The notes under the pieces were generated by a model. It had not been told where the DNA came from, did not search any database, and was given only the letters and a program-made list of their open reading frames with translations. A stretch of DNA of 64,000 bases from a virus, in the IMG/VR virus record IMGVR_UViG_3300036790_000419, positions 84,914 through 148,913 of that record; one strand, 5' to 3'. The translations under genes and the position numbers were made by a program. Positions 343 to 62,263 of the stretch are shown here, piece after piece; the stretch's first letter is position 1, and every line of letters begins with the position of its first letter.

Positions 343-525
343 GTGTTCGGCTGGCTGTCCTCGCTGTTCTTCGCCATCGCGTTCATCCTGTACGCGGCCA
401 AGGCCGGCACCTCGCTGCCCTGGACCCCGGAGGGCTTCACGATCCTCGGCCTGCTGTGCCTGGCCCTGCACGTGGCGTTCTGGTGGTACCCGGTCGGCCG
501 CCGCCCCGGGCCGCCGGTCGCGTGA
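343..525 (+). CDS. small two-helix membrane protein
   Basis: Sixty residues starting at GTG, directly after the preceding stop. Two hydrophobic segments (about residues 4-18 and 32-48) suggest a hairpin membrane protein, followed by a short basic, proline-rich tail. Its TGA overlaps the GTG of the terminase gene, which suggests translational coupling. Function unknown. Confidence 0.6.
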   Translation: MFGWLSSLFFAIAFILYAAKAGTSLPWTPEGFTILGLLCLALHVAFWWYPVGRRPGPPVA

Positions 526-2489
526 CCGCCGCCGGCGCGGCTGCCGCGGCCCTGCTCGGGTCGTCCGGCGGCGCGGGCACGTCCGCTACCGGGCCCGGCA
601 TCTTCGAGGAGGAGCCGGTCCCGCTTGACGTCTTCGTCCGGGACCGGGCCTACCTGGCCAACCCGCCGCTGAGCGAGGTCCAGTACGAGGCGGTCCGGCA
701 CGCTGAGCGGGTCTACTACCTGCCGACCTACGAGCTGCTGGCGGCCAGCGCCGACAAGGAGGTGAGGAACTACTGGTCGCAGCCGACGCGCATGGTCAAC
801 TTCCTGGAGCTGGAGTGGGGGAAGGGCGGGGGCAAGGACCACACCTGCCGGATGATCGCCATGCGGGTCTGCTACCTGCTGCTGTGCCTGAAGTCCCCGC
901 AGGATTACTACCAGATGCCCGAGCAGGATTCGATTCACGTCCTGAATGTCGCATCATCTTCGAAGCAGGCCCAGCGCGCGTTCTTCGCCCCCATGCGCCG
1001 CGCGGTGCAGCGGCCGGGCTGCTGGTTCCAGCGCAAGGCCGGCATCGACATCATCGACGCCGCCGCCCGCCAGCAGCGCGGCGCCCGCGGGGAGCGCACC
1101 GTCACGCTGCTGGACACCATCCGGTTCGAGCACAACATCGAGGCTGTCTCCGGCCACTCCGACGCCGACAGCCAGGAGGGGCTCAACCTCATCCTCGGCA
1201 TCGCCGACGAGATCGACGCGTTCCGCTCGGCCGCGGAGCTGGCTCGCAACGCCTCGGCCAAGCAGCGCGAGTCGTCCTCCTCGGCCGAGGCGATCCTCGA
1301 CATGATCCGGACCAGTGCCACCACCCGGTTCCCGGAGACCTTCAAGAACGTGCACATCTCCTACCCGCGCTACCTGGGCAGCACCATCCAGCAACTGGTC
1401 GCCAAGGGCAAGGCTGACAACGAGGCGCGCGGTGAGCGGAGCCGCTACTACGTGTCCGGCCCGCTGGCTACCTGGGAGGCCAATCCCCGCATCAGCGGGA
1501 AAGAGGCGTTCGCGGAGGACTACGAGAAGGACCCGGCGCTGGCCGAGGCGAAGTACGAGTGCAAGCCGCGCCGCGCGATTAACCCGTACTTCGCCAACGA
1601 GGAGGCCATCCGCGACTGCCTGGTGGAGTACGCCCAGCCGCCGGTGAGCGTGGCCTACGTGCGCGAGGGCGCGACCTGGAGGCCGCTCTACACCTTCAGC
1701 CCCGGGTTCTTCCCGGTCAAGGGTGCCTTGTACGCCATGCACGCTGACCTGGCGGCCACCGGCGACCGGGCCGGCGTGACGATGGCGCACGTCAAGCGCT
1801 GGCAGGACCACGCCCTTGTCGGCTACGACGAGGAAGGCCTGGAGATCAAGGTCCAGGAGCGCCGCCCGGTGGTGAAAGCCGACTTCACCATCAGCTACGA
1901 GGCGGACGCCGGCGCGAGGCCGCCGATGGAGATCCAGATTCGCTGGGCGAGGATGTTGTGCCTTGAGCTGCGCCGGATGGGATTTCCGGTAGTTTTCTTC
2001 TCATTCGATCAGTGGCAGTCAAAAGACTCCATGCAGATCCTGGAATCGCACGGAATAGAGACTGACCGGTTCTCCACCGACGTGTCCGAGGAGGGCTGGC
2101 GGACGCTGCGGGACGTCATGTACGAGGGCCGCCTGGAGATGCCCGCGCGCGAGCTGACCGTCATCGAGCTGCTCGGGCTGTCGCGGCTGCCGAACGGCAA
2201 GATCGACCACCTGGGTGACAGCTCCAAGGACGAGGCCGACTCCCTGGCCGGCGCGGTTTCCGGCGCGCTGAGGACCGGCGGCCAGGAGGACGCGAGCGGC
2301 AAGCGCGCCTACCCCGGCCAGGCCTCGTTCTACGGCCCGGCCGCTGAGATCCCCTCCCCGGCTGGAATGCCCGCGGCGATGTCAGTGCTCGGCCCGGATA
2401 ACTTCATGCCGGCGGACCGCCCCGGCATGGAGTACGGCAGCAGCTACCTGGACGACTGGGGCTCGGCCAGCGGGGACTACCAGCAGTAA
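522..2489 (+). CDS. terL: terminase large subunit
   Basis: DNA-packaging motor: ATPase plus head-full or site nuclease. The GTG at 522 was chosen because it overlaps the preceding stop (GTGA); the upstream extension in this frame overlaps the membrane protein. About 655 residues, a normal length. A Walker A-like loop GKGGGKD is at residues 100-106 and a Walker B-like LILGIADE ends at D229-E230. The C-terminal RNase H-like nuclease shows H-x-D-L-A (D409), FSFD (D496) and a SSKDEAD segment (D570/D573) as likely metal ligands. A perfect palindromic terminator follows immediately. Confident from the motifs; the packaging type cannot be told. Confidence 0.93.
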   Translation: MTAAGAAAAALLGSSGGAGTSATGPGIFEEEPVPLDVFVRDRAYLANPPLSEVQYEAVRHAERVYYLPTYELLAASADKEVRNYWSQPTRMVNFLELEWGKGGGKDHTCRMIAMRVCYLLLCLKSPQDYYQMPEQDSIHVLNVASSSKQAQRAFFAPMRRAVQRPGCWFQRKAGIDIIDAAARQQRGARGERTVTLLDTIRFEHNIEAVSGHSDADSQEGLNLILGIADEIDAFRSAAELARNASAKQRESSSSAEAILDMIRTSATTRFPETFKNVHISYPRYLGSTIQQLVAKGKADNEARGERSRYYVSGPLATWEANPRISGKEAFAEDYEKDPALAEAKYECKPRRAINPYFANEEAIRDCLVEYAQPPVSVAYVREGATWRPLYTFSPGFFPVKGALYAMHADLAATGDRAGVTMAHVKRWQDHALVGYDEEGLEIKVQERRPVVKADFTISYEADAGARPPMEIQIRWARMLCLELRRMGFPVVFFSFDQWQSKDSMQILESHGIETDRFSTDVSEEGWRTLRDVMYEGRLEMPARELTVIELLGLSRLPNGKIDHLGDSSKDEADSLAGAVSGALRTGGQEDASGKRAYPGQASFYGPAAEIPSPAGMPAAMSVLGPDNFMPADRPGMEYGSSYLDDWGSASGDYQQ

Positions 2490-3444: not shown

Positions 3445-3517
3445 AGGGACGTAGTTCAGCGGCCAGAACGGCAGCTTCCAACACTGCGCGCCGGGGGTTC
3501 GAGTCCTCCCGTCCCTG
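3445..3517 (+). tRNA. tRNA-Trp(CCA)
   Basis: Acceptor AGGGACG/CGTCCCT, D-stem GTTC/GAAC, loop TTCCAAC (anticodon CCA), T-loop TTCGAGT, discriminator G. The anticodon stem closes with a C31-A39 mismatch. First tRNA of the array. Confidence 0.9.
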
Positions 3518-3815
3518 CGACCGTCAGCAACGGCGAGAGCCCGCGCAGGCGCATGTCAATGCAGCTTGAGAACTCCACAGCGTGAGCATCAGCGGCGGGC
3601 GCCATCCCGTCGCACATGACTGGCAGCCGGGTGCGCTCACACCGTGCCCGGCTGCCGATCAACGCCCGGTTCACGGCATGCCGTGACGATGGGCAAGCAC
3701 CGTGCCGTCCGCCGGCCTCCGGGCTCGCGTTCCACCGTAGGGGTGTGCGGCCTGGCTCCGGCCAGGTGGCGGCGGTACTTGGTGTCAAGAGTTTTTGCAC
3801 GATATGCAAAGCAAT
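3518..3815. other. gene-poor spacer with inverted repeats
   Basis: No convincing gene. It holds a 10-bp inverted repeat GGCAGCCGGG (3622-3631) / CCCGGCTGCC (3647-3656) and a perfect 16-base palindrome TCACGGCATGCCGTGA (3671-3686). A TTTGCA/TGCAAA pair lies just before the next tRNA. These are probably processing or termination structures of the array transcript. Confidence 0.5.
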
Positions 3816-3888
3816 GGGGCCTTAGCTCAGCTGGTAGAGCATCTGCTCGGCAGACAGAAGGTCGGGGGTTCGATCCCCCCAGGCTCCA
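3816..3888 (+). tRNA. tRNA-Ala(GGC), C33
   Basis: Acceptor GGGGCCT/AGGCTCC with the alanine-specific G3-U70 pair. Loop TCGGCAG puts C at position 33 and GGC at 34-36. The anticodon stem closes with C31-A39. The other arms are normal, with discriminator A. Confidence 0.75.
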
Positions 3889-3890
3889 CA

Positions 3891-3965
3891 GCGGCGGGTT
3901 GCCGGTTCGAATCCGGTCCGGTCCACGCATGGGCTGGTAGCTCAAATGGACAGAGTGTCGCATCT
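3891..3965 (+). tRNA. circularly permuted tRNA-like element 1
   Basis: The 3' half comes first: GCGGC (anticodon-stem strand, 3891-3895), variable GGGTT, T-arm GCCGG-TTCGAAT-CCGGT, acceptor strand CCGGTCC and discriminator A3925. After a 5-base linker comes the 5' half: acceptor GGGCTGG (3931-3937), TA, D-arm GCTC/GAGT, anticodon-stem strand GTCGC and ATCT. All seven acceptor pairs and all five anticodon-stem pairs form between the halves, including three G-U pairs. It is wedged directly between two complete tRNA-Ala genes. It could be a functional permuted tRNA or the remnant of a tandem duplication. Confidence 0.5.
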
Positions 3966-4038
3966 GGGGACGTAGCTCAGCTGGTAGAGCAGCCGCCTCG
4001 CAAGCGGCGTGTCGCGGGTTCGATTCCCGCCTTCTCCA
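3966..4038 (+). tRNA. tRNA-Ala(CGC)
   Basis: Acceptor GGGGACG/CTTCTCC with G3-U70 and one C-T mismatch. Anticodon stem GCCGC/GCGGC, loop CTCGCAA (anticodon CGC), discriminator A. Starts at the base after the permuted element. Confidence 0.9.
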
Positions 4039-4194
4039 CTTAGGGCACTACTGCCGCGCGTCGGCCGGCGCAAGGCGAGAGAGGGCAGCTGACCTCTCTG
4101 GTGCCTTACCGTTCACCCGTGCGGTAAAACCGGGGACCAGCGGAGCCGAATGTCCGGGGCACCGGGCTGAGGGTGGGGTAAGCCTCCGCAACAT

Positions 4195-4269
4195 CGGGGT
4201 GTGGCGCAGCTTGGCTAGCGCGCTACGTTCGGGACGTAGAGGTCGTGAGTTCAAATCTCACCACTCCGA
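4195..4269 (+). tRNA. tRNA-Pro(CGG)
   Basis: Acceptor CGGGGTG/CACTCCG, D-stem GCGC/GCGC, stem CTACG/CGTAG, loop TTCGGGA (anticodon CGG), discriminator A. CCA is encoded at 4270-4272. Confidence 0.92.
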
Positions 4270-4272
4270 CCA

Positions 4273-4328
4273 GGATCTCAATGGCTCAAGTGAGGCGGCA
4301 GTAAAGGGCCACGCCCTGCCGGAGATCC
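4273..4328 (+). other. structured RNA spacer between tRNA-Pro genes
   Basis: An outer 7-bp stem GGATCTC/GAGATCC encloses two hairpins, CTCA/TGAG and CGGCAG/CTGCCG (with inner GGGC/GCCC). It has no T-loop, so it is not a tRNA. It may be an RNase III or RNase E processing element. Confidence 0.4.
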
Positions 4329-4332
4329 GTAA

Positions 4333-4404
4333 CGGGATGTAGTTCAGTGGAAGAGCGCCTGGTTTGGGACCAGGATGTCGCGGGTTCGAGCCCTGCCATC
4401 CCGA
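4333..4404 (+). tRNA. tRNA-Pro(TGG)
   Basis: Acceptor CGGGATG/CATCCCG, anticodon stem CCTGG/CCAGG, loop TTTGGGA (anticodon TGG), T-loop TTCGAGC, discriminator A. No encoded CCA. Confidence 0.92.
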
Positions 4405-4474
4405 CTGCTGGTCAGAGCCGCGTGGCGTGCGGGCCCTTAGCGGGGCACTCAGGGTTCGAGTCCCTGCCTGGTCA
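4405..4474 (+). other. orphan T-arm, probable tRNA remnant
   Basis: A perfect T-arm CAGGG-TTCGAGT-CCCTG (4450-4466) is followed by CCTGGTC-A like an acceptor end, but no matching 5' acceptor strand lies next to it. CTGGTCAG occurs at both ends (4407 and 4469), suggesting a deletion or rearrangement. Confidence 0.35.
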
Positions 4475-4553
4475 GCCGCTCCGGTAATAGGGACGCCAGC
4501 AGCGGACGCGCGCTGGCGGTCGGTGAAACCCCGTTGCGAATCCGGAGCACCCT

Positions 4554-4626
4554 GGGGCCTTAGCTCAGATGGCAGAGCGCCCGGTTGAAACCCGGAAGGT
4601 CGGAGTCTCGGAATCTCCAGGTCCCG
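4554..4626 (+). tRNA. tRNA-Phe(GAA), aberrant T-loop
   Basis: Acceptor GGGGCCT/AGGTCCC, loop TTGAAAC (anticodon GAA). The T-loop reads CTCGGAA instead of TTCGANT, so the T54 and A58 positions are changed. Discriminator G rather than the usual A. Possibly decaying. Confidence 0.7.
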
Positions 4627-4640
4627 CGCAGTAACACAAT

Positions 4641-4713
4641 GGGGATGTGGCCGAACGGTTACAGGCACTTGCCTTCCAAGCAAGCTACGCGGGTTCGACC
4701 CCCGTCATCCCCT
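4641..4713 (+). tRNA. tRNA-Gly(TCC)
   Basis: Acceptor GGGGATG/CATCCCC, stem CTTGC/GCAAG, loop CTTCCAA (anticodon TCC), discriminator T. Confidence 0.92.
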
Positions 4714-4841
4714 CTGGTACGGGCCGGACTCATACTCCGGTTGCGTGCAAGTAACCGGTCCGCGGCTGTCGGGCTGCGGACCGGGAGCGCCTGGGCTGCC
4801 CGGAGGGGCCGACACCCTCTCCGGGGGCACCAGTACTCAAT

Positions 4842-4913
4842 GCGCCGCGAGCATGTACGGCTATGCAGCGGACTCTTAATCCACGGAACGGGGTTCAAGT
4901 CCCTGGCGGCGCA
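4842..4913 (+). tRNA. tRNA-Lys(CTT)
   Basis: Acceptor GCGCCGC/GCGGCGC, D-stem GCAT/ATGC, loop CTCTTAA (anticodon CTT), discriminator A. Position 8 is G instead of T and the anticodon stem has one C-A mismatch. Confidence 0.85.
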
Positions 4914-4957
4914 CTTCACCTGGCTTCGCCGATTTTCGGCAGAGTTCGGTGTTATTC

Positions 4958-5032
4958 GGGCGAGTAGAGCAACCTGGCAGACCCTCCGCTCCCAAAAAGC
5001 GGGATGTGCGGGTTCGAATCCCGCCTCGCCCA
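4958..5032 (+). tRNA. atypical tRNA, Gly(CCC) or CAA anticodon
   Basis: Perfect acceptor GGGCGAG/CTCGCCC and T-arm GCGGG-TTCGAAT-CCCGC, but a poor D-arm. The anticodon arm reads CCGCT-CCCAAAA-AGCGG. With a 7-base loop the anticodon is CAA with C33, on a short variable region unlike Leu. With a 9-base loop U33 precedes CCC, a glycine anticodon. Identity unresolved. Confidence 0.55.
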
Positions 5033-5136
5033 CGCCGGCTGGCAAGGCCGTCCTGCGAATCCTTGCCCGGCCTCTCCTGTGGGGAGAGCAAAGGCCGTTA
5101 CAGGAGGGGGAGAAAAGGCCCCTCCCGTCAATTCAG

Positions 5137-5209
5137 TGGGGTATGGCGCAATTGGCAGCGCAGGTGCGTCTGGTGCACAAGGTTCTAGGTTCGAGTCCTG
5201 GTACCCCAG
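5137..5209 (+). tRNA. tRNA-Gln(CTG)
   Basis: Acceptor TGGGGTA/TACCCCA with G73 (Gln identity), D-stem GCGC/GCGC, loop GTCTGGT (anticodon CTG), T-loop TTCGAGT. Confidence 0.92.
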
Positions 5210-5212
5210 CGA

Positions 5213-5287
5213 GCTGGAGAATGCGGGTTCGAATCCTGCCCGGCGAGAGAGATCTCGCCGGTGGCTTAATCGGCAAAGCGCCAGCAA
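5213..5287 (+). tRNA. circularly permuted tRNA-like element 2
   Basis: The 3' half is first: anticodon-stem strand GCTGG (5213-5217), variable AGAAT, T-arm GCGGG-TTCGAAT-CCTGC, acceptor strand CCGGCGA and G73 (5247). A 7-base linker follows, then the 5' half: TCGCCGG (5255-5261), TG, D-arm GCTT/AAGC, G26, CCAGC (5281-5285) and AA. The acceptor stem (7 of 7) and anticodon stem (5 of 5) are fully Watson-Crick. A hairpin CCCCGGGC/GCCCGGGG (5288-5320) follows at once. Three bases separate it from the tRNA-Gln end. The anticodon cannot be read because the loop is split. Confidence 0.55.
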
Positions 5288-5321
5288 CCCCGGGCACGGA
5301 CGGTATCCCGGCCCGGGGCCC

Positions 5322-5395
5322 GCCCTTGTAGCTCATCTGGCAAGAGCGCCCGCCCCGTAAGCGGAAGGTCCCGCGTTCGACTCGCGGCAAGGGCT
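5322..5395 (+). tRNA. tRNA-Thr(CGT), C33
   Basis: Acceptor GCCCTTG/CAAGGGC, loop CCCGTAA where CTCGTAA is usual, so U33 is C. T-loop TTCGACT, discriminator T. Confidence 0.8.
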
Positions 5396-5506
5396 CGTAG
5401 TGTCCCGCCGAAGGCGTCACAGGCCCTCATGCCGGCTCCGTTCCAGGTGCCGTGCGGGGTTCGAGTTCTGCTCGTTTCTCCCTCGATCGCGCGTCGCGAT
5501 CATTAT
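5396..5506. other. tRNA remnant and hairpin spacer
   Basis: Contains an isolated T-arm-like GCGGGGTTCGAGTTCTGC (near 5453-5470) without a matching acceptor, and a perfect hairpin GATCGCG-CGT-CGCGATC (5485-5501). Confidence 0.35.
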
Positions 5507-5580
5507 GCCCGGATAGCTCAGACGGCGAGAGCGTATCCCCGGTACGGATGAGGCCCCGAGTTCGATTCTCGGTCCGGGCT
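5507..5580 (+). tRNA. tRNA-Thr(GGT), C33
   Basis: Acceptor GCCCGGA/TCCGGGC, stem TATCC/GGATG, loop CCGGTAC (anticodon GGT, C at 33), T-arm CCGAG-TTCGATT-CTCGG, discriminator T. Confidence 0.8.
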
Positions 5581-5591
5581 CGCAAGTTCAC

Positions 5592-5665
5592 GCGGATGTA
5601 GCTCAGTTGGTTAGAGCGTGACGTTGCCAACGTCAAGGTCGCCGGTTCGAGTCCGGTTATCCGCT
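5592..5665 (+). tRNA. tRNA-Gly(GCC)
   Basis: Acceptor GCGGATG/TATCCGC, stem TGACG/CGTCA, loop TTGCCAA (anticodon GCC), discriminator T. Confidence 0.92.
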
Positions 5666-5666
5666 C

Positions 5667-5749
5667 GGGTGAGTGGCGTAATGGCAGCCGCGCACGGTTC
5701 AGGCCCGTGTGTCCGCAAGGACGTGAGGGTTCAAGTCCCTCCTCGCCTA
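5667..5749 (+). tRNA. tRNA-Leu(CAG)
   Basis: Class II tRNA with a long variable arm (GTCC/GGAC). Acceptor GGGTGAG/CTCGCCT, stem CACGG/CCGTG, loop TTCAGGC (anticodon CAG), discriminator A. Confidence 0.92.
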
Positions 5750-5859
5750 CTTCGAGGTTGTCCACCGTGGCCGCGGGCCGCTGCGCCTGCCGTGCGAGAG
5801 CACGGGTTCCAGGACGGCGGTTAGTTTCCCTGCTAGCGGGAGCGAACGGTGACCTACAC

Positions 5860-5943
5860 GGACGCGTGGCTCAGTGGCTACAGCAGCGCCCTGCTAAGGC
5901 GTACAGGGGTAACCCTGCGGAGGTTCGAGTCCTCCCGCGTCCG
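5860..5943 (+). tRNA. tRNA-Ser(GCT)
   Basis: Class II, variable arm CAGGG/CCCTG. Acceptor GGACGCG/CGCGTCC, loop CTGCTAA (anticodon GCT), discriminator G as expected for Ser. Confidence 0.92.
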
Positions 5944-6028
5944 CTTCTGCGCCGGATACCAGCCGAGTCCGTCAGGTGGTGACGCAGGCGCAGTGCCCGT
6001 GGGGGACGGCAACCCGCGACGGGCGCCC

Positions 6029-6116
6029 GGAAGCGTAAGTCGAGCCGGCCTACCGACAGCGGTCCCGAAAACCGTGAGGGGTAACTCCCGTGTGGGTTCG
6101 AGTCCCACCGCTTCCT
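6029..6116 (+). tRNA. tRNA-Ser(CGA), C33
   Basis: Class II, variable arm GGGG/CTCC. Acceptor GGAAGCG/CGCTTCC, stem GCGGT/ACCGT, loop CCCGAAA where CTCGAAA is usual, so C33. Discriminator T instead of G. Confidence 0.78.
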
Positions 6117-6123
6117 CCGCACA

Positions 6124-6167
6124 TGATTGAGGCGGCACCCACGGGCCGCTTGCGGGTACCGCCTCAA
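6124..6167 (+). terminator. 10-bp hairpin inside the tRNA array
   Basis: ATTGAGGCGG pairs exactly with CCGCCTCAAT around a 23-base loop. It may end or pause a sub-transcript of the array. The following 115 bases are relatively AT-rich, with a second hairpin CGAGCAG/CTGCTCG. Confidence 0.5.
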
Positions 6168-6283
6168 TGTGTAATCAGCCAGGCTGGTGATCCAGTCCAG
6201 AAGGAAGGAACCACGTGCCTTTACGAGCAGCCTAGTTTACTGCTCGCGTTCGCAAGCATACGCACAGTCACAGTGATTGTCGA

Positions 6284-6357
6284 GGGCGGGTAGCTCAGCA
6301 GGTTGGAGCACTTCCCTGATAAGGAAGAGGCCGCTGGTTCGATCCCAGCCTCGCCCA
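6284..6357 (+). tRNA. tRNA-Ile(GAT)
   Basis: Acceptor GGGCGGG/CTCGCCC, stem CTTCC/GGAAG, loop CTGATAA (anticodon GAT), discriminator A, CCA encoded at 6358-6360. Confidence 0.93.
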
Positions 6358-6361
6358 CCAC

Positions 6362-6436
6362 GGCGGTATAGCTCAGCCGGTGAGAGCGCCCCGCTCATAA
6401 CGGGAGAGGCCGGGGGTTCGAGCCCCTCTACCGCTA
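6362..6436 (+). tRNA. tRNA-Met(CAT)
   Basis: Acceptor GGCGGTA/TACCGCT, loop CTCATAA (anticodon CAT), discriminator A. Elongator type, or Ile2 if C34 is lysidinylated; the sequence does not decide. Confidence 0.88.
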
Positions 6437-6437
6437 C

Positions 6438-6511
6438 GGGCCGCTAGCTCAACTGCGCAGAGCGGCTGACCTTTAATCAGCGGGTTCGGGGTTCGAGTCC
6501 CCGGCGGCCCA
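6438..6511 (+). tRNA. tRNA-Lys(TTT)
   Basis: Acceptor GGGCCGC/GCGGCCC, stem GCTGA/TCAGC, loop CCTTTAA (anticodon TTT), T-arm CGGGG-TTCGAGT-CCCCG, discriminator A. Confidence 0.93.
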
Positions 6512-6519
6512 CTAGCCTG

Positions 6520-6675
6520 GTGCGCGTGAGGAACCTCGCGCTCCGGGCAGCTGAGCGCCTGCACGTCATCTTCGACGCCGTCCCGGTTTACGAGGACGAG
6601 CGGTGGTACAGGTACGGAGACTGGGGCTGCCGGGCGTCCAACTGGGTGCGCCGGCAGCGGAACAAGCGCCGGTAG
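6520..6675 (+). CDS. small basic protein inside the tRNA array
   Basis: Fifty-one residues from a GTG nine bases after tRNA-Lys. It is rich in Arg and aromatic residues (RWYRYGDWGC), and its stop TAG lies inside the start of tRNA-Arg(TCT). No clear Shine-Dalgarno. The aromatic and charged composition argues for a real protein, but no family is recognised. Confidence 0.45.
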   Translation: MRVRNLALRAAERLHVIFDAVPVYEDERWYRYGDWGCRASNWVRRQRNKRR

Positions 6676-6739
6676 CTCAGTCGGACAGAGCAGGCGGCTT
6701 CTAACCGCCAGGCCGCGGGTTCGAGCCCCGCCTGGCGCA
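6666..6739 (+). tRNA. tRNA-Arg(TCT)
   Basis: Acceptor GCGCCGG/CTGGCGC, stem GGCGG/CCGCC, loop CTTCTAA (anticodon TCT), discriminator A, CCA encoded. Its first ten bases are also the end of the small frame before it. Confidence 0.93.
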
Positions 6740-6745
6740 CCACAC

Positions 6746-6818
6746 GGTCCTGTCGTCTAGCGGCCCAGGATGCCTGATTCTCGATCAGGTCGCGCGAGTT
6801 CGAATCTCGCCAGGACCA
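6746..6818 (+). tRNA. tRNA-Glu(CTC)
   Basis: Acceptor GGTCCTG/CAGGACC, stem CCTGA/TCAGG, loop TTCTCGA (anticodon CTC), T-loop TTCGAAT, discriminator A. Confidence 0.9.
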
Positions 6819-6912
6819 CGCAGAGCCTGCTACGCGGGAGACGGCCATTGCCAAAGCAGGTACTCTGAGGTCCGCGCCGGGAGCTGGCTGAAATCCGCTC
6901 GGCAGGACGCAA

Positions 6913-6986
6913 GCCCCTCTCGACTAGCGGTCCAGGTCGCCTGCCTTTCAAGCAGGATGACACCGGTTCGAATCCGGTGGGGGGAA
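6913..6986 (+). tRNA. tRNA-Glu(TTC)
   Basis: Acceptor GCCCCTC/GGGGGGA with a G1-A72 mismatch, stem CCTGC/GCAGG, loop CTTTCAA (anticodon TTC), T-arm ACCGG-TTCGAAT-CCGGT. Confidence 0.82.
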
Positions 6987-7017
6987 CGAGGGCCTCCGGG
7001 GTAACCTGGGGGCGCGA

Positions 7018-7095
7018 CGCGGAGTAGGGGAGTTCGGTTGTCCCCGCGGCGCTTTCATAACGCCGAGATCGCGGGTCCGAATCCCGCCTCCGCCA
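7018..7095 (+). tRNA. tRNA with CAT in a 9-base loop, initiator-like
   Basis: Acceptor CGCGGAG/CTCCGCC with a C1-C72 mismatch, as initiators have a 1-72 mismatch. D-stem GGGG/CCCC. Anticodon stem CGGCG/CGCCG encloses a 9-base loop CTTTCATAA; the normal Met loop is CTCATAA, so TT is extra. The T-loop is TCCGAAT, so C replaces T55. Read with a 7-base loop and a C-A closing mismatch the anticodon would be TCA (UGA). Function uncertain. Confidence 0.6.
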
Positions 7096-7186
7096 CGAGG
7101 CCCGGCACTGGCGGCCGGCGAAAGCCCCGGGGAATACGTGGCTGGCCCTGCTGGATAAGGGCTAAACAGCCGGGGGCCTCAGTCGA

Positions 7187-7259
7187 TCCGGCGTAGCTCA
7201 ATCGGCAGAGCAGCGTCCCGTTAAGGCGAGGGTTCCCAGTTCGAGTCTGGGCGCCGGAG
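7187..7259 (+). tRNA. tRNA-Asn(GTT), C33
   Basis: Acceptor TCCGGCG/CGCCGGA with G73, loop CCGTTAA where CTGTTAA is usual, T-arm CCCAG-TTCGAGT-CTGGG. Confidence 0.82.
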
Positions 7260-7364
7260 CGCGTCAGTCTGGGATACGAGGGGCAGCAGCCCTGCCGCGG
7301 CCCGCGCGGCGGTCGCCGAAGCGGGACGAGTGCCGGGGCTCCCCAGTCAGCCGCCGGCACACAT

Positions 7365-7440
7365 GGTCTTGTAGGGGAGCCTGGCCGTCCCCGCCGCCCC
7401 GTCAAGGCGAAGATCGCGGGTTCGAATCCCGCCAGGACCG
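7365..7440 (+). tRNA. tRNA-Asp(GTC), C33
   Basis: Acceptor GGTCTTG/CAGGACC with G73, D-stem GGGG/CCCC, loop CCGTCAA where CTGTCAA is usual, T-arm GCGGG-TTCGAAT-CCCGC. Confidence 0.82.
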
Positions 7441-7464
7441 CTTTCTCACCCGGGGCCGGGGCGT

Positions 7465-7599
7465 TTAGACACCGGAGCGCTTGCGCCGCTCGCCCAGCTC
7501 GGTCCGCCCGAGCCGGTACAGGGCGCGGTAGCCGCCGAGCCTCAGCCCGATCCAGATGCCGGAGCCGAAGGCGATGACCAGGAGGATGAAAATGCCCAC
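7465..7599 (-). CDS. small membrane protein inside the tRNA array
   Basis: Forty-four residues on the minus strand from GTG at 7599, in the gap between tRNA-Asp and tRNA-Val. One hydrophobic helix (residues 3-17, IFILLVIAFGSGIWIG) is followed by an Arg-rich tail (GERRKRSG). It is a plausible single-pass protein with a cytoplasmic basic tail. No homologue recognised. Confidence 0.5.
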   Translation of the reverse strand: MGIFILLVIAFGSGIWIGLRLGGYRALYRLGRTELGERRKRSGV

Positions 7600-7641
7600 G
7601 TGATTAAACGGTACCTGGTTCTTTACCAGTGTCTAGGCACT

Positions 7642-7713
7642 GCCCCTGTAGCTCAACGGGAGAGCGCCGTCTCGACAAGGCGGAGGGAGGTGGTCCGACA
7701 CCACCTAGGGGCA
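7642..7713 (+). tRNA. tRNA-Val(GAC), C33
   Basis: Acceptor GCCCCTG/TAGGGGC, stem CCGTC/GGCGG, loop TCGACAA (anticodon GAC, C33). T-loop TCCGACA has C at 55. Discriminator A, CCA encoded. Confidence 0.78.
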
Positions 7714-7717
7714 CCAT

Positions 7718-7791
7718 GCACTAGTAGCTCAGCGGACAAGAGCAGCGGCCTACGGAGCCGCGTGGCGGGGGTTCGAGTCCCTCCTAGTGCA
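7718..7791 (+). tRNA. tRNA-Arg(ACG)
   Basis: Acceptor GCACTAG/CTAGTGC, stem GCGGC/GCCGC, loop CTACGGA (anticodon ACG, needs inosine for CGC), discriminator A. Confidence 0.92.
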
Positions 7792-7802
7792 CGCGAGTAC
7801 AA

Positions 7803-7874
7803 GGGCGCATAGCTCAGCGGAAGAGCGCTCGGTTCACACCCGAGAGGCCGGCGGTTCGATCCCTTCTGCGCCCA
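7803..7874 (+). tRNA. tRNA-Val(CAC)
   Basis: Acceptor GGGCGCA/TGCGCCC, stem CTCGG/CCGAG, loop TTCACAC (anticodon CAC), discriminator A. The T-stem has one mismatch. Confidence 0.9.
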
Positions 7875-7875
7875 C

Positions 7876-7947
7876 GGTCGGTATAGCTCAACGGCAGAGC
7901 GCTGGACTGTGGCTCCAGACATACGAGTTCGATTCTCGTTACCAACC
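7876..7947 (+). tRNA. tRNA-His(GTG)
   Basis: Carries the His identity pair G-1 (7876) with C73. Stem CTGGA/TCCAG, loop CTGTGGC (anticodon GTG), T-arm ACGAG-TTCGATT-CTCGT, one C3-A70 acceptor mismatch. Confidence 0.9.
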
Positions 7948-7951
7948 CCAT

Positions 7952-8032
7952 GGCGGAGTGACCCGAGATGGCAAGGGGGCCGGCTGTAAACCGGCTGCGC
8001 GAGCATGGCAGGTTCGAGCCCTGCGTCCGTCA
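7952..8032 (+). tRNA. tRNA-Tyr(GTA)
   Basis: Long variable arm as in bacterial Tyr tRNAs. Stem GCCGG/CCGGC, loop CTGTAAA (anticodon GTA), T-arm GCAGG-TTCGAGC-CCTGC, discriminator A, CCA encoded. Confidence 0.9.
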
Positions 8033-8036
8033 CCAA

Positions 8037-8110
8037 GGTCTCATAGCTCAGTGGAACAGAGCACCCGCCTCCGGAGCGGGGGGCCGGCGGTTCGAGTCCG
8101 TCTGAGACCA
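8037..8110 (+). tRNA. tRNA-Arg(CCG)
   Basis: Acceptor GGTCTCA/TGAGACC, stem CCCGC/GCGGG, loop CTCCGGA (anticodon CCG), discriminator A. Confidence 0.92.
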
Positions 8111-8198
8111 CGACTGAGTTCACCGCCGTGACCTGGCAGCGGGTAGCGGTGGGCCAGTAAAGCGGGGCGTGCTGCCGGCTACGCCTGCCCCGTCCAAT

Positions 8199-8271
8199 GG
8201 CGGTATGGCCGAGTGGTACAGGCGCACGCCTGCAAAACGTGCTTACCCGGGTCCGATTCCCGGTGCCGCCT
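8199..8271 (+). tRNA. tRNA-Cys(GCA)
   Basis: Acceptor GGCGGTA/TGCCGCC, stem CACGC/ACGTG with C31-A39 closing mismatch, loop CTGCAAA (anticodon GCA). T-loop TCCGATT has C at 55. Discriminator T, CCA encoded. Confidence 0.88.
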
Positions 8272-8275
8272 CCAG

Positions 8276-8348
8276 GACCCTGTAGCTCAGCGGACAGAGC
8301 TGCTTCCCCCTAAGGAGCGAGTCGCTGGTTCGAGTCCAGCCAGGGCCG
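8276..8348 (+). tRNA. tRNA-Arg(CCT), C33
   Basis: Acceptor GACCCTG/CAGGGCC with one A-C mismatch, stem GCTTC/GGAGC, loop CCCCTAA where CTCCTAA is usual, discriminator G. Last tRNA of the array. Confidence 0.82.
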
Positions 8349-8378
8349 CCTTCGGTGCTCACGCTGTGGCAGCCTGGA

Positions 8379-9953: not shown

Positions 9954-11552
9954 ATGACTACACCGGGCGGCGGGCAGGGCTCCTACAGCTCCAGCGTGCA
10001 GCCGCCTGGTGGCCTCGGGGTTAGCAGTCAGGGCTACGGCCAGGAGGGCTACGTCCTGCAGGACGAGCAGACGCTTGTCCAGCCGCCCGACGAAGCTCTC
10101 AATTTTGCCACCGGCGTCCCGTACTTCCTCCCCTTCGCCACCCCGTACCGGGACTCGTGGGAGGTCTTCCGCGACGACCCGGTCAGCATCCGCCAGCTGG
10201 TCACCATGCGCCGCCGCGACGGCCAGGCCAGGGCGCTGTACCGGCTGCTGACCAAGCCGCTGCTGAGCGCGATGAAGAACGCCGACGTGGTGCCCGCCGA
10301 CGGGGTGACCGGCGGGGTGGAGGAGGCCCGGTTCTGCAAGGACCTGCTGTTCGCGCCGCGGGCGCAGGGCGGCATGTCTCAGTCGTTTGACAAATTCGTC
10401 AAGCAGATGCTGCTCGCGCTGTTCAACGGGTTCAGCGCCTGGGAGATGGTCTACTGGGTCCCCAAGACCGGGCCGAACAAGGGCAAGTGGACGCTGCGCA
10501 AGATGGACTGGCGCCCTTCGGAGACCCTCACCTTCCTGCTTGACGGCCAGGGCGAGTTCAACGGCTTCCGGCAGCGCACGTTCTTCCAGGGCCGGACGAT
10601 CGACGTCAAGATCGCGAAAGAGACCGCGCTGTACTACGCGCACGAGGAAGCCGAGCGGCCGTTCTACGGCGTGTCCATGTTCGAGAGCGCCTTCTACCAC
10701 TACGACAAGAAGGAGAAGCTCTACTACATCGCTCACCTGGCGGCGCAGCGGGCCGCGGTGGGCCTGCGGGTGGGCACGATGGTGCCGAATGCCCCGGCTG
10801 AGGACAAGAACAACTTCATCCGGGCGCTGGCCCAGCTCGGGCTCGCGCAGTACATCGCGCTGCCCACCGCCGACTGGACGGTGCAGACCCTCAACGAGTC
10901 AGCCAGCCGGTTCGACTTCCTGGGGCTGATCAACCACCACAACAGCCAGATGTCCAAGAGCGTTCTCGCCCAGTGGTTCGACAACGAGCAGGGAGGCGGC
11001 CAGGGGGACAGCACGCTGGTCGACTTCGGCAAGCAGGACGACGTCACCTACTTCCTGATGCTGGAGGGCATCCTGGAGGAGATGGCCGGGATCATCACCG
11101 ACCACATCTTCCCGCGCTTCGTCGACTGGAACTTCGGCTCCGGCAAGTACCCGCAGTTCAAGTGGGGCCCGCTGACCGAGGAGGCCAAGGCCGCCATCCA
11201 GGACACGTTCGACAAGCTGGCCACCGCCGGCCAGCAGGCCAACGTCACGCCGGAGTTCATGCTCGACCTGGAGCAGCGGATGGCCGTCGACTTCGGGTTC
11301 GACATCGACTACGACAAGATCAAGGCGGACCGCGAGAAGCAGCAGAAGCAGATGGCCGCCCAGCAGAAGCAGATGGCCGCCCAGGCCCAGCAGCAGGCGC
11401 AGAACCCGGTCCAGGCCGGGAAGGGCGGGTCCCCCCAGCAGCCGGTGGTGCACATCAAGGTCCCGGTCGGCTCCCAGACTTCCGCCACCGGCACGTCGGC
11501 CTCCGGCGGCAGCGCGGTCGGCCAGCGCAGCGGGAACGGGCTAGACAGGTGA
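9954..11552 (+). CDS. portal protein (DUF935/Mu gp29-like)
   Basis: The 532-residue protein forms the dodecameric ring at the capsid vertex through which DNA passes. Recognised by the DUF935-like order: N-terminal MRRRDGQARAL region, FNGFSAWEMVYW, then WRPSETLTF, HEEAERPFYGVSMFE and HLAAQRAAVGLRVG. The C-terminal 80 residues carry a Gln-rich segment with the repeat QKQMAAQ. The ATG is fixed by the start-associated motif CCGATTAAGGGGGCATG. The next gene overlaps its stop. Confidence 0.85.
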   Translation: MTTPGGGQGSYSSSVQPPGGLGVSSQGYGQEGYVLQDEQTLVQPPDEALNFATGVPYFLPFATPYRDSWEVFRDDPVSIRQLVTMRRRDGQARALYRLLTKPLLSAMKNADVVPADGVTGGVEEARFCKDLLFAPRAQGGMSQSFDKFVKQMLLALFNGFSAWEMVYWVPKTGPNKGKWTLRKMDWRPSETLTFLLDGQGEFNGFRQRTFFQGRTIDVKIAKETALYYAHEEAERPFYGVSMFESAFYHYDKKEKLYYIAHLAAQRAAVGLRVGTMVPNAPAEDKNNFIRALAQLGLAQYIALPTADWTVQTLNESASRFDFLGLINHHNSQMSKSVLAQWFDNEQGGGQGDSTLVDFGKQDDVTYFLMLEGILEEMAGIITDHIFPRFVDWNFGSGKYPQFKWGPLTEEAKAAIQDTFDKLATAGQQANVTPEFMLDLEQRMAVDFGFDIDYDKIKADREKQQKQMAAQQKQMAAQAQQQAQNPVQAGKGGSPQQPVVHIKVPVGSQTSATGTSASGGSAVGQRSGNGLDR

Positions 11553-58182: not shown

Positions 58183-58929
58183 TTACGGCTCGATGTCCGC
58201 CTCGACGACCCGGTTCGGCGGGAGCACGAACTCGGTGTATTCCAGCAGGTCGTCCCCGTGCCGCCAGCCGCTGACCCCGGCGAGGACGTACGCGCCGCTC
58301 TCCAGCCCCAGGGCGGGCAGCTCGCGCCCGTCGTCCTTCGCCGCCCGGCATTCGAACGCGATGCCCCCGGCCAGCTCAGCCGGGTCGGTGCCGGACCGGG
58401 CCGCGATCAGGTGCCCGGCCCCGCGCGGGTCGGGCAGCGGGGCCGGCAGGGCCAGCTCGGGCACGCTGGGGAAGTACCGCGGGTGAACCCAGGTGACGCT
58501 CAGCCGCGACGGGCTGCCGTCGCGCAGCCGGGTGACCTCCTCGCGGCGGATGACCGGGTGGTCCGGCGGCCCGTCGGCTAGCCCGAACATCGGCACGATG
58601 TACCCGGGCGCGGTCACGGTGCCGGCGAAAGTGACGGTGACCACCTCCGAGGCCGGGCTGTCCCGCAGCCGCATGCGCTGCTGGGGGGACAGCGCGGCAC
58701 GGGGGGCGTCCACGTAGGTGCCGGAGGCGTCGGTCCGCACCAGGCGCTCGGCCAGGTGCAGGTGGGCGACCGCCTGCTGGGCCACGCCCTGGCTGACCCC
58801 CCACTCGTCGCGGATGGCGCGGACGGAGGGCAGCGGGTCGCCCTGCCGCAGCTCACCGCGCAAGATCATTTCCTTGTAGTGGGTGACGATCTGCTTCCAG
58901 AGCGGCTCGCTCCGCTGGGCCTGGGGCAC
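58183..58929 (-). CDS. GntR/HutC-family repressor (KorSA-like)
   Basis: The 248-residue product has an N-terminal winged helix (PLWKQIVTHYKEMILRGEL, PLPSVRAIRDEWGVSQGVAQ) and a C-terminal UTRA effector domain (residues about 95-245, RREEVTRLRDGSPSRLSVTW). In pSAM2 and related Streptomyces elements a repressor of this kind (KorSA) controls transfer and excision genes. Divergent from the HTH-DUF2637-FtsK operon, with a palindromic operator in between. Confidence 0.85.
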   Translation of the reverse strand: MPQAQRSEPLWKQIVTHYKEMILRGELRQGDPLPSVRAIRDEWGVSQGVAQQAVAHLHLAERLVRTDASGTYVDAPRAALSPQQRMRLRDSPASEVVTVTFAGTVTAPGYIVPMFGLADGPPDHPVIRREEVTRLRDGSPSRLSVTWVHPRYFPSVPELALPAPLPDPRGAGHLIAARSGTDPAELAGGIAFECRAAKDDGRELPALGLESGAYVLAGVSGWRHGDDLLEYTEFVLPPNRVVEADIEP

Positions 58930-59005
58930 TGCGGCCTCCTGTTATTCGGTCAGTTCGCGTACGCCCCGATTTTACTTCGGCAAAGACCGGGGCCAGTGGA
59001 ACATC

Positions 59006-59034
59006 TTGCGAACGTGTACTGTTCACACTACAGT
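59006..59034 (+). promoter_or_regulatory. operator-overlapped promoter of the transfer module
   Basis: -35 TTGCGA (59006-59011), 17-base spacer, -10 TACAGT (59029-59034). The inverted repeat ACTGT-TCACACT-ACAGT (59018-59034) covers the -10, the expected position for repression by the divergent GntR protein. Confidence 0.65.
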
Positions 59035-59083
59035 GAGCGGAACGAGGTGATTCCGCCGGAGATCTCAGAGAGGCGGAGGGGAG

Positions 59084-59347
59084 ATGCCGAAGAGCGCGCA
59101 AGAGGCAGGAGAGCAGCTGGTCCGGTGGACGGACGCCGCTCTCGAACTCGGCGTGTCCGTCGACACCCTGGAAGCGTGGTACGGCGACGGGATCGTGCCG
59201 CTGCGCCGTACCCCCGGCCTCCGCCTCACCTGGCGGTCCTGGCTGGACGCGGTGCTCGCGCCGAGCGAGCCGGGGACCGACGGGGACATCGCCAAGGTAA
59301 CCGCCGCCTGGTGGGCGGCGCGGGCAACGGCGGGGGTGGCGGCGTGA
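59084..59347 (+). CDS. small HTH protein (excisionase-like)
   Basis: Eighty-seven residues, GAGGGGAG before the ATG. WTDAALELGVSVDTLEAWYG resembles a MerR/excisionase-type helix-turn-helix. It could act in excision, regulation or plasmid control. First gene after the operator. Confidence 0.55.
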   Translation: MPKSAQEAGEQLVRWTDAALELGVSVDTLEAWYGDGIVPLRRTPGLRLTWRSWLDAVLAPSEPGTDGDIAKVTAAWWAARATAGVAA

Positions 59348-60204
59348 TGTCCTCGTTCGGCGGTGTGATTAAGGCGGCGCGCGAGCGGGCCGACTCGCTG
59401 ACGGTCGGCACCGCCATGGGCGTGGTGGCGTTCTGCTCCGGCTTCATCAGCTTCACCCACATCAGCGCGCTGACCCAGTACCTGGGCGGGTCCTGGAAGG
59501 TCGCGCACCTGATGCCGTTCTGCGTGGACGGCCAGATCGTCATCGGCTCCGCGTACTTCATGTACGGGAAGAACTGGTGGTCCAAGTCGGCCGGGCTGCT
59601 GTTCGGCGTCATTCCCGGCATCGCCGAGTCGCTGATCGCCAACTGGGAGTCGGGCATCGCGCACGGGCTGTTCTCCGCGGGCTGGGACACCGTTCCCGCG
59701 CAGTCGTTCGCCTGCTCCATGATCCTGTTCGAGCGCTGGCTGCACCAGCGCCGGGCGGAAGGGCCGGCCTCGCGTCCGGCTCCCGTGACCGTCTCGCAGG
59801 CACTGGAGCCCGCCGCACCCGTGGCTCCTGAGGCCGGCCCGGCGCTGGTGCACCTGCACGCCGCGCCGGCGGGAGCGCCGTGGGGCCTGGCGGTCCCCGC
59901 GGCTGCTCCCGTGCCTGAGCCGGTGCCCGCGACCGCCGCGGCCTCGCTGCCGTTCCCGCTGCAGGTGGCCGGCCCGTCCATGCCGCTGGACAGCCGCCCG
60001 GCCCGGCCCCGCCGCCAGACGGCCACCACGTCCGTGAGCATCGACCGCAGGCCGCTGCCGGCGGAGGGCTCGGACGAGCTGCGCGCGCTGGTCAACAGCC
60101 TGAGCCGCAATGACCTGTACCGGCAGTACGAGGTCAGCAAGCACGGCGCGGACAAGCTCCGCGAGCAGTACCTGAACGAGGAAGTGGCCACCGATGTCGC
60201 CTGA
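59347..60204 (+). CDS. DUF2637/Spd-like membrane protein
   Basis: The 285-residue product has four hydrophobic segments in the first 130 residues (VVAFCSGFISFTHISALTQY, DGQIVIGSAYFMYGKNWW, SAGLLFGVIPGIAESLIANW), the DUF2637 pattern of Streptomyces conjugative elements. A long Pro/Ala linker and a C-terminal helix (SLSRNDLYRQYEVSKHGADK) follow. Spread (Spd) proteins aid plasmid movement through mycelium. Start overlaps the HTH gene. Confidence 0.75.
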   Translation: MSSFGGVIKAARERADSLTVGTAMGVVAFCSGFISFTHISALTQYLGGSWKVAHLMPFCVDGQIVIGSAYFMYGKNWWSKSAGLLFGVIPGIAESLIANWESGIAHGLFSAGWDTVPAQSFACSMILFERWLHQRRAEGPASRPAPVTVSQALEPAAPVAPEAGPALVHLHAAPAGAPWGLAVPAAAPVPEPVPATAAASLPFPLQVAGPSMPLDSRPARPRRQTATTSVSIDRRPLPAEGSDELRALVNSLSRNDLYRQYEVSKHGADKLREQYLNEEVATDVA

Positions 60205-62263
60205 CAAGACCCCGAGCCTGCACCAGCAGGCACACCACGCGCGCAGCGAGCTGCTGGTGCGCGCCGTCCAGCTCGGCGTGCCGTGGGCCGTGTTCGCGCT
60301 GCTCACCATCTGCGGCAACGTGCTGCACCTGGTGTCCGCGCACGACCGCGCACTTGGCGAGTGGCTGCCGCTGACCGCGGGGCTGGCCATGGCGGCGGGC
60401 AGCGCTACCGTCGCCATTGACTGGCACCTGCGGCGCAACCGCACGTCGCGGGTCGGCCGGGTCATCGGGCCGGTCACCACCGGGGCCGCCACGGTGATGC
60501 TCACCGCGTTCCTGCTGGCCGGCTACAGCGTGCCGCTGGTGCTGCTGTGGCTGTTCGGCGGCATCGCCGGCTGCGCGGTGTGGGACCTGTGGTTCGCGCA
60601 CGCCCCGCGGCACGACCTGGGCACCGCGTTCGCGCTGTCCGCCGAGCGCGCGGGCCTCGGCCAGGTGCGGCTGTCCCCGGCCCGCGGGGGCACCGCCCCG
60701 GCCCTGCCGCAGCGCCCGGCCGCCCCCGGCCGCCCGGCCCCGCGCCAGCCGCTGTCGGCCCGGCTGCGGCCCTCGCGCGGGGCCCCGGCCCCCGGCCCGC
60801 AGCGCGGCACCATCTACTTCCCGCCCGGCGACGTGCCCGACGGGGAGCGCGCCGCCCGGGTGGAGAGCGCCAACCAGCTGCCGCCCGGCGCGCTGGTGCT
60901 GTCCCCCAACCCGGACAACAGCGCCGCCGCCGACTACGCCTACTCCGACCCGCGCACGCTGGACGCCCCGCAGCCGTGGCCCGGCCCGTCGGCGCCCGGC
61001 GCGGACATGAGCGTGCCGTTCCGCTACGGCCTCTACCAGACCGGCGAGGTGGTGCTGGTGCCCCGGCTGCCGCTGTTCCACACCCGCGGGATGGGCCAGA
61101 CCGGCAGCGCCAAGACCACCGGGTGGAGCTGGAACCAGCTGGGCGAGGGGGTGACCCGGCAGGACTACGCGGCGATGGTGCTGGACCCCTCCAAGGGCGA
61201 GCAGTTCTACGGGGCCTGGCGTCCCGCGCTGCACCGGTTCGAGACCGACGAGGAGAAGGGGCTGTACCTGCTGCGCGGCCTGCACCGGGCCCGCATCGCC
61301 CGGTGCAACTACCTGGGCCGCAAGCGGCTCATCAACTGGGAGCCGGGCTGCGGGCTGAGCTTCCTGGACGTGTTCATGGCCGAGGCTCCCGACATCATCC
61401 GGCTGCTGGAGACCGCCAGGACCCGGACGGCGAGCGCGGTCATGGCCCTGGAGACCTGGAACAGCGACGTCAAGAACGGCCGGTCCGCGGGCATCGCCTA
61501 CAACCTGGACCTGCAGCTCACCCTGGCCACCGAGATGCCGAGCGTCGCCCAGGGGCAGATGAGCCACCTGTGCCTGGGCGTGGAGGACCTGAAGCAGGCG
61601 GCGTTCGGCCTCTCCGCGCGGCAGAAGGCGGCGGGCTGCCGCCCGGAGCTGTGGGGCAAGCGGTACCCGGGCAAGGCGTACTGGGACGCGCCGACGGTGC
61701 CCGAGGAGTACGGCACCACCGCGATGCGGTTCTGGTACTGGGAGGGCGAGGCCCGCCAGGCGTTCGCCTACGCCGAGCAGTACGAGGCGGCCGGCCGGCC
61801 GCTCGACGACGTGACCGGCGAGGCGCTGGAGGCCGAGCCGGCCGCCCCGGCCAGTCACGCGCTGCCCGGCCCCGGCGGCACCCTGGCCGGCGCCCCGCCC
61901 CGCCCCGGCTGGCCGGCGGCCCTGCCGGGCAACGTCCGGCCGCTGTTCCGCGCGGAGCCGTCCGTGCCCGGCCGCGACGACGCGGCGGCCGAGGCCGAGG
62001 AGAAGGTCCGCGCGCACCTGGCCGGCCTGCTGGCCGCCGGCACCGCCGTGGTCGCGTTCGACGACCTGACCAAGCAGGGCCTGTGGGGCGGGGCCGGCGA
62101 CGGCCCCGGCGGCAAGACGGCCCGGTCCCGGTCGTGGGGCTACACCGCCATGGGGTCCATGTGCCACCTGGGGTACGCCGAGGCCCTGACGGGCGGGGGC
62201 CGCAAGCGGTGGAGGATCCTGCCGGAGGCCGCGCGCGGCGCGGCGGAGGGCGAGGAGGGCTAG
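60194..62263 (+). CDS. FtsK/TraB-like DNA translocase
   Basis: The 689-residue product has N-terminal membrane helices (about 24-46, 56-75, 96-128), a Pro-rich linker, and an AAA+ motor with a variant Walker A GMGQTGSAKTTG near residues 300-311 (the usual GK is AK). Later blocks MVLDPSKGEQFYGAWRPALH and GVEDLKQAAFGLSARQKAAG match plasmid-encoded FtsK-like proteins of actinomycetes. TraB proteins move double-stranded DNA between hyphae. Overlaps the DUF2637 gene. Confidence 0.82.
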   Translation: MSPDKTPSLHQQAHHARSELLVRAVQLGVPWAVFALLTICGNVLHLVSAHDRALGEWLPLTAGLAMAAGSATVAIDWHLRRNRTSRVGRVIGPVTTGAATVMLTAFLLAGYSVPLVLLWLFGGIAGCAVWDLWFAHAPRHDLGTAFALSAERAGLGQVRLSPARGGTAPALPQRPAAPGRPAPRQPLSARLRPSRGAPAPGPQRGTIYFPPGDVPDGERAARVESANQLPPGALVLSPNPDNSAAADYAYSDPRTLDAPQPWPGPSAPGADMSVPFRYGLYQTGEVVLVPRLPLFHTRGMGQTGSAKTTGWSWNQLGEGVTRQDYAAMVLDPSKGEQFYGAWRPALHRFETDEEKGLYLLRGLHRARIARCNYLGRKRLINWEPGCGLSFLDVFMAEAPDIIRLLETARTRTASAVMALETWNSDVKNGRSAGIAYNLDLQLTLATEMPSVAQGQMSHLCLGVEDLKQAAFGLSARQKAAGCRPELWGKRYPGKAYWDAPTVPEEYGTTAMRFWYWEGEARQAFAYAEQYEAAGRPLDDVTGEALEAEPAAPASHALPGPGGTLAGAPPRPGWPAALPGNVRPLFRAEPSVPGRDDAAAEAEEKVRAHLAGLLAAGTAVVAFDDLTKQGLWGGAGDGPGGKTARSRSWGYTAMGSMCHLGYAEALTGGGRKRWRILPEAARGAAEGEEG

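Follow-up and report, generated by a model that had tools for sequence, protein, structure and literature searches.

How far can a transfer RNA (tRNA) dispense with the uridine at position 33 of its anticodon loop (U33)? This base is among the most conserved of tRNAs, and textbooks present it as the anchor of the U-turn in the anticodon loop. The question is raised by the final 64 kb of the 148,913-base IMG/VR virus record IMGVR_UViG_3300036790_000419 (64,000 nucleotides, hereafter the window, i.e. the whole stretch analysed). It carries an array of 33 tRNA genes, all called on the + strand by ARAGORN, and a structural parse indicates that the U33 of bacterial-type tRNAs is replaced by a cytidine (C33) in 10 of them. 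The reading favoured here, to which the sequences give about even chances, is that the C33 genes encode tRNAs that work for the phage and for which the requirement at position 33 would be relaxed from U to either pyrimidine, with guanine-cytosine (GC) pressure pushing the change. The array, its ten C33 genes and a U33 gene used as internal control are the following.

3445..8350, + strand: array of 33 tRNA genes (ARAGORN, Rfam scan), between the terminase and portal genes
3816..3889, + strand: tRNA-Ala(GGC), C33 at 3848, loop TCGGCAG, C31.A39 mismatch
4958..5033, + strand: tRNA with anticodon CAA, called Leu, C33 at 4992, loop CCCAAAA
5322..5396, + strand: tRNA-Thr(CGT), C33 at 5355, loop CCCGTAA
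5507..5581, + strand: tRNA-Thr(GGT), C33 at 5540, loop CCGGTAC
6029..6118, + strand: tRNA-Ser(CGA), C33 at 6065, loop CCCGAAA
6438..6512, + strand: tRNA-Lys(TTT), C33 at 6471, loop CCTTTAA
7187..7260, + strand: tRNA-Asn(GTT), C33 at 7219, loop CCGTTAA
7365..7441, + strand: tRNA-Asp(GTC), C33 at 7400, loop CCGTCAA
7642..7716, + strand: tRNA-Val(GAC), C33 at 7673, loop TCGACAA, C55 in the T-loop as well
8276..8350, + strand: tRNA-Arg(CCT), C33 at 8308, loop CCCCTAA
7718..7792, + strand: tRNA-Arg(ACG), U33, internal control (C33 in 0/19 of the family)

The first-pass annotation had listed nine such loops; all nine are present, but the count was short, since tRNA-Lys(TTT) at 6438 was absent from its list. 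It described the stems as sound in other respects, which largely holds, the departures being mismatches in Ala-GGC, Thr-CGT, Asp and Asn (at the 27-43 pair, C.A in Thr-CGT and Asp and G.A in Asn) and the weak D-arm of the 4958..5033 gene. The Rfam tRNA cut-off is exceeded by 32 of the 33 array genes; Ser-CGA was matched only as the clan-mate tRNA-Sec, its 34.5 bits falling short of the required 47. The D-arm of the 4958..5033 gene, weak in the window, is better in relatives. The amino-acid identity of this tRNA is uncertain; like its orthologues in L006-L064, it displays a short variable region and no long variable arm, in all relatives seen.

Relatives were retrieved by searching viral contigs with two proteins encoded on either side of the array.

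456..2489, + strand: terminase large subunit, query for finding relatives
9954..11552, + strand: portal protein, second query and basis of the family tree

The terminase led to 8 loci and the portal protein to 56 loci, all from other (soil) metagenome assemblies. These viruses, considered to infect GC-rich bacteria, carry 30-40 tRNA genes, with as many as 37 in the arrays retrieved. Almost all arrays include some C33 genes, in sets that differ. After removal of identical sequences, the family set comprises 521 tRNAs, in which position 33 is T in 397, C in 122 (about 23%), A in one and G in one; the substitution is thus almost entirely restricted to pyrimidines. The near-invariant sites of the T-loop are kept in the same set (T54 in 499/521, 96%; T55 in 502/521, 96%; C56 in 519/521, 99.6%). 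The comparison with related phages, which had been proposed as a check, therefore bore out the initial observation, C33 recurring in independently assembled relatives. As the same loops recur across independent assemblies, a sequencing or register error is ruled out as the source of C33.

The background was estimated from non-family viruses by two pattern scans leaving position 33 free (222 loci, 1,337 tRNAs). They retrieved 41 C33 tRNAs (3.1%) and 7 with A or G. The difference between the family and other viruses (23% vs 3%, Fisher p ~1e-26), together with the recurrence in independent assemblies, indicates that C33 is due neither to chance nor to a sequencing slip.

It might be supposed that the C33 genes are decaying or non-decoding (for example nuclease decoys or sinks), so that U33 would no longer be needed. 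The poor translation by U33 mutants in other systems and the weak D-arm of the 4958 gene speak for this, but it appears improbable. Indeed, stem mismatches per 17 pairs are equally frequent in C33 and U33 tRNAs of the family (0.51 and 0.48), and conservation at positions 8, 54, 55, 56 and 58 is equal in both groups. These figures rule out a general degeneration of C33 tRNAs and, therefore, decay as the reason for C33. Besides, a decaying gene would hardly keep a pyrimidine so strictly, and tRNAs for the commonest codons are found among the C33 genes. In the window, the codons read by C33 tRNAs, including GCC, their commonest, are as common as those read by U33 tRNAs (p=0.89), which rules out a restriction of C33 to rare codons.

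Position 33 also switches rapidly between both pyrimidines. On the portal tree, C/T parsimony changes at 33, summed over isoacceptors, amount to 85, the highest value among the 26 sites scored (site 32, 68; site 60, 51; site 55, 12; site 8, 8; site 54, 7). No phylogenetic signal was detected at 33 on this tree (ratio to shuffled 1.03, vs 0.91 for site 32 and 0.82 for site 28). A comparison free of tree or recombination assumptions, that of the 117 orthologue pairs with at most 10 differences, gave the same picture: position 33 differs in 19 pairs, and sites 8, 54, 56 and 58 in 0-1. For example, Glu-CTC of L007 and L009 have two base differences in all, one of them at 33. Likewise, position 33 differs in 8 of the 30 isoacceptors, paired by name, that the window shares with L006, a locus that lies on the same contig as L059 and whose portal protein is 97% identical to that of the window over the shared stretch. 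So many changes devoid of tree signal suggest two-way switching rather than the one-way loss expected from decay.

Outside the family, C33 becomes more frequent as viral GC increases: 1.1% below 40% GC, 1.6% at 40-50%, 8.9% at 50-60% and 8.8% above 60% or, when pooled, 1.4% below and 9% above 50% GC; the corresponding value in the family is 23.5%. Replacement of T by C at 55, 54 and 8 also climbs with viral GC, at far lower levels. The isolates and cells examined are mostly devoid of C33. The nearest isolate, Microbacterium phage Magritte (50% identity for the portal protein, 46% for the terminase; 63-64% GC), keeps U33 in 26/26 tRNAs. The Streptomyces phages Paradiddles (36/36) and BillNye (24/24) also keep U33, and the Bxz1-type Mycobacterium phage Gizmo carries two C33 tRNAs, both Val. 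The near-invariance of U33 in cells, on which the first-pass annotation relied, held in the cellular samples examined. All 32 tRNAs have U33 in part of a Nocardia chromosome, taken from a record in a plasmid collection and the sole actinobacterial chromosome sampled. A pattern scan of 199 Bacillota genomes found one genuine C33 among ~1,200 tRNAs of the searched shape, a denominator extrapolated from 21 genomes; a second match (Tyr) was a register artefact. Separately, a 38-tRNA-gene array of the Paenarthrobacter plasmid pYJN5-1 (L325:2296-9990) includes two C33 genes. Taken together, the rates in non-family viruses, cells and isolates establish C33 as a general trait of phage tRNAs, linked to GC and carried to an extreme by the family studied here.

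Within the family, C33 is very unevenly distributed among isoacceptors (chi2 115, 33 degrees of freedom). It is frequent in Ser-CGA (6/7), Thr-GGT (8/10) and Asn (11/19) and found in about half of Val and Asp, whereas it is absent from Arg-ACG (0/19), Ile-GAT (0/13), Gly-GCC (0/13) and Ser-GCT (0/13), as well as from Phe, Trp, Lys-CTT, Leu-GAG and Pro-CGG. It is highest when base 36 is C (34%) and lowest when it is G (12%), a trend that receives weak support when tested at the level of isoacceptors (p=0.04). Arg-ACG plausibly keeps U33 because its A34 must be deaminated by the host TadA, an enzyme that hydrogen-bonds U33, and Ile-GAT plausibly because it needs N6-threonylcarbamoyladenosine at position 37 (t6A37). 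However, a simple t6A rule does not fit Thr, Asn and Arg-CCT, which read ANN codons too and yet often have C33. In a sample of unrelated phages picked for C33 (L070-L189), Ile-GAT, with the loop CCGATAA, accounts for more C33 tRNAs than any other isoacceptor.

This uneven distribution bears on a second alternative, in which a cytidine deaminase of the phage or of its host would edit C33 to U33 post-transcriptionally, making the genomic letter neutral. Editing would account for a C/T exchange at 33 alone, without A or G and with an intact structure. It is nevertheless disfavoured, and we regard it as very improbable, because no recognisable deaminase was found and isoacceptor use is so uneven. 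Neither the 12 family records searched for PF00383 nor the scanned open reading frames (ORFs) of the 149-kb record, window included, gave a deaminase match in Pfam, although many ORFs are matchless. The contrast between Arg-ACG or Ile-GAT and Ser-CGA would be unexpected of a general editor, and many unrelated phages have C33 too, though less often. A general C-to-U editing of stems was likewise rejected: C.A mismatches exceed A.C ones (32 vs 16) in anticodon stems and not in acceptor or T stems. Equally slim is the chance that certain isoacceptors have their C33 turned to U33, or modified in another way, by a host-encoded or unrecognised phage enzyme. In Methanopyrus kandleri, tRNAs undergo C8-to-U8 editing and the genome has a C at this invariant U in many tRNA genes; the family differs from this system by the position concerned and by the lack of any deaminase found.

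A third alternative is that C33 is selected as a shield from host anticodon nucleases (PrrC, RloC, VapC and others) that read or cut beside U33, shifting nuclease repertoires driving the switching between U and C. PrrC cleaves 3' to U33, and RloC there and one base further (PMC2610378). Furthermore, it is established that phage tRNAs resist anticodon nucleases through loop changes (PMC10264068; PMC12409363). Switching that is fast, isoacceptor-specific and devoid of tree signal would agree with such a shield, as would the lack of any tRNA repair enzyme recognised by Pfam. Among the ORFs of the record, many of which are matchless, Pfam matched neither an RNA ligase nor a polynucleotide kinase, and no known enzyme of tRNA modification either. 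However, C is the sole replacement used, and yet A or G would change the site too. In addition, the effect grows with viral GC in unrelated viruses and spans more than one isoacceptor group, and Magritte is devoid of C33. The C33 loops differ from the U33 loops of the Nocardia sample, an actinobacterium, as the host of the family may be. Nuclease escape is therefore a tentative explanation, less likely than relaxation at position 33 but better placed than decay or editing.

According to the favoured reading, that of a position relaxed to either pyrimidine, T-to-C changes at 33 would arise by mutation pressure in GC-rich phages. They would be cheap for many isoacceptors and would be fixed and often reverted, making C and U nearly interchangeable; U33 would be retained where charging or modification of the tRNA depends on reading it, which is plausibly why some isoacceptors resist C33. 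The C33 tRNAs would be produced and aminoacylated and would serve in translation without any editing of C33. Several observations weigh against this reading. Published U33 mutants decode poorly (PMC3664417). As Magritte and the Nocardia part-chromosome keep U33 throughout and viral GC does not predict C at loop sites 32 and 60, GC pressure is insufficient as the sole cause. Loop sites under weaker constraint switch no faster than position 33, a pattern that could reflect fluctuating selection rather than drift. Lastly, Ile-GAT often has C33 in other phages, so that the t6A argument for Ile is not universal. Among the three options offered by the first-pass annotation, tolerance is nonetheless the best supported, because the substitution is limited to pyrimidines, structure is intact, close orthologues switch freely and C33 follows GC; nuclease escape is compatible with the data, and editing lost ground.

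The array resembles those of large actinobacteriophages (Bxz1 type, Streptomyces Stanwilliamsviridae, Magritte), which carry ~25-40 tRNA genes, a large share of them grouped in a single genome region, but Magritte, Paradiddles and BillNye keep U33 and C33 in Gizmo is confined to its two Val tRNAs. As in phage tRNAs known to escape tRNases (van den Berg 2023, PMC10264068; T5 tRNA-Lys vs PARIS AriB, PMC12409363), the anticodon arm is altered and the anticodon kept; however, T5 tRNA-Lys is changed at 39-41 and 16, not at 33, and the terms U33 and 'position 33' appear in the main text of neither paper. A natural C33 in a functional tRNA is known from the eukaryotic initiator tRNA-Met (PMC9023262), a single special tRNA that starts translation, whereas the family has C33 in many elongator tRNAs. 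No earlier report of C33 in phage tRNAs was found in the open literature; subscription papers and supplementary tables (e.g. mycobacteriophage tRNA tables), mostly outside this search, may mention it.

Other features of the array and of the record can be mentioned. The gene at 7018-7096, called tRNA-SeC(TCA) by ARAGORN, occupies the array slot of a Met(CAT) gene in L006, L011 and L064 and resembles a tRNA of the initiator type whose anticodon loop is enlarged. It is one of three window tRNAs (with 7642-7716 and 8199-8274) in which C55 replaces T55 in the T-loop; C55 reaches 3% in the family vs none in sampled viruses below 50% GC. Weak, sub-threshold Rfam matches to YrlA (Y RNA-like) lie between tRNA genes at 3886-3967 and 5215-5283 and may represent either Y RNAs or pieces of tRNAs. 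The family records gave no Ro/TROVE protein; Magritte carries one near its tRNAs. A TraB-like plasmid transfer protein (60194-62263; NF041214, below cut-off), nearest to Nonomuraea and Thermobispora sequences, is encoded in this phage genome next to a DUF2637 protein (58756-60204), and both hint at an actinomycete host. At L004:15000-17963, a 987-residue radical S-adenosylmethionine (SAM) protein akin to TIGR03960 (B12-binding radical SAM) is encoded near DNA replication genes.

The near-identical natural C33/U33 pairs constitute a ready set for testing whether the U-turn needs U33. If selective editing of C33 did occur, it would be a programmed anticodon-loop edit new to bacteria. More largely, the family could show which modification and charging enzymes read U33 and whether phages alter position 33 against tRNA-cutting defences, and surveys of phage tRNAs should score this position.

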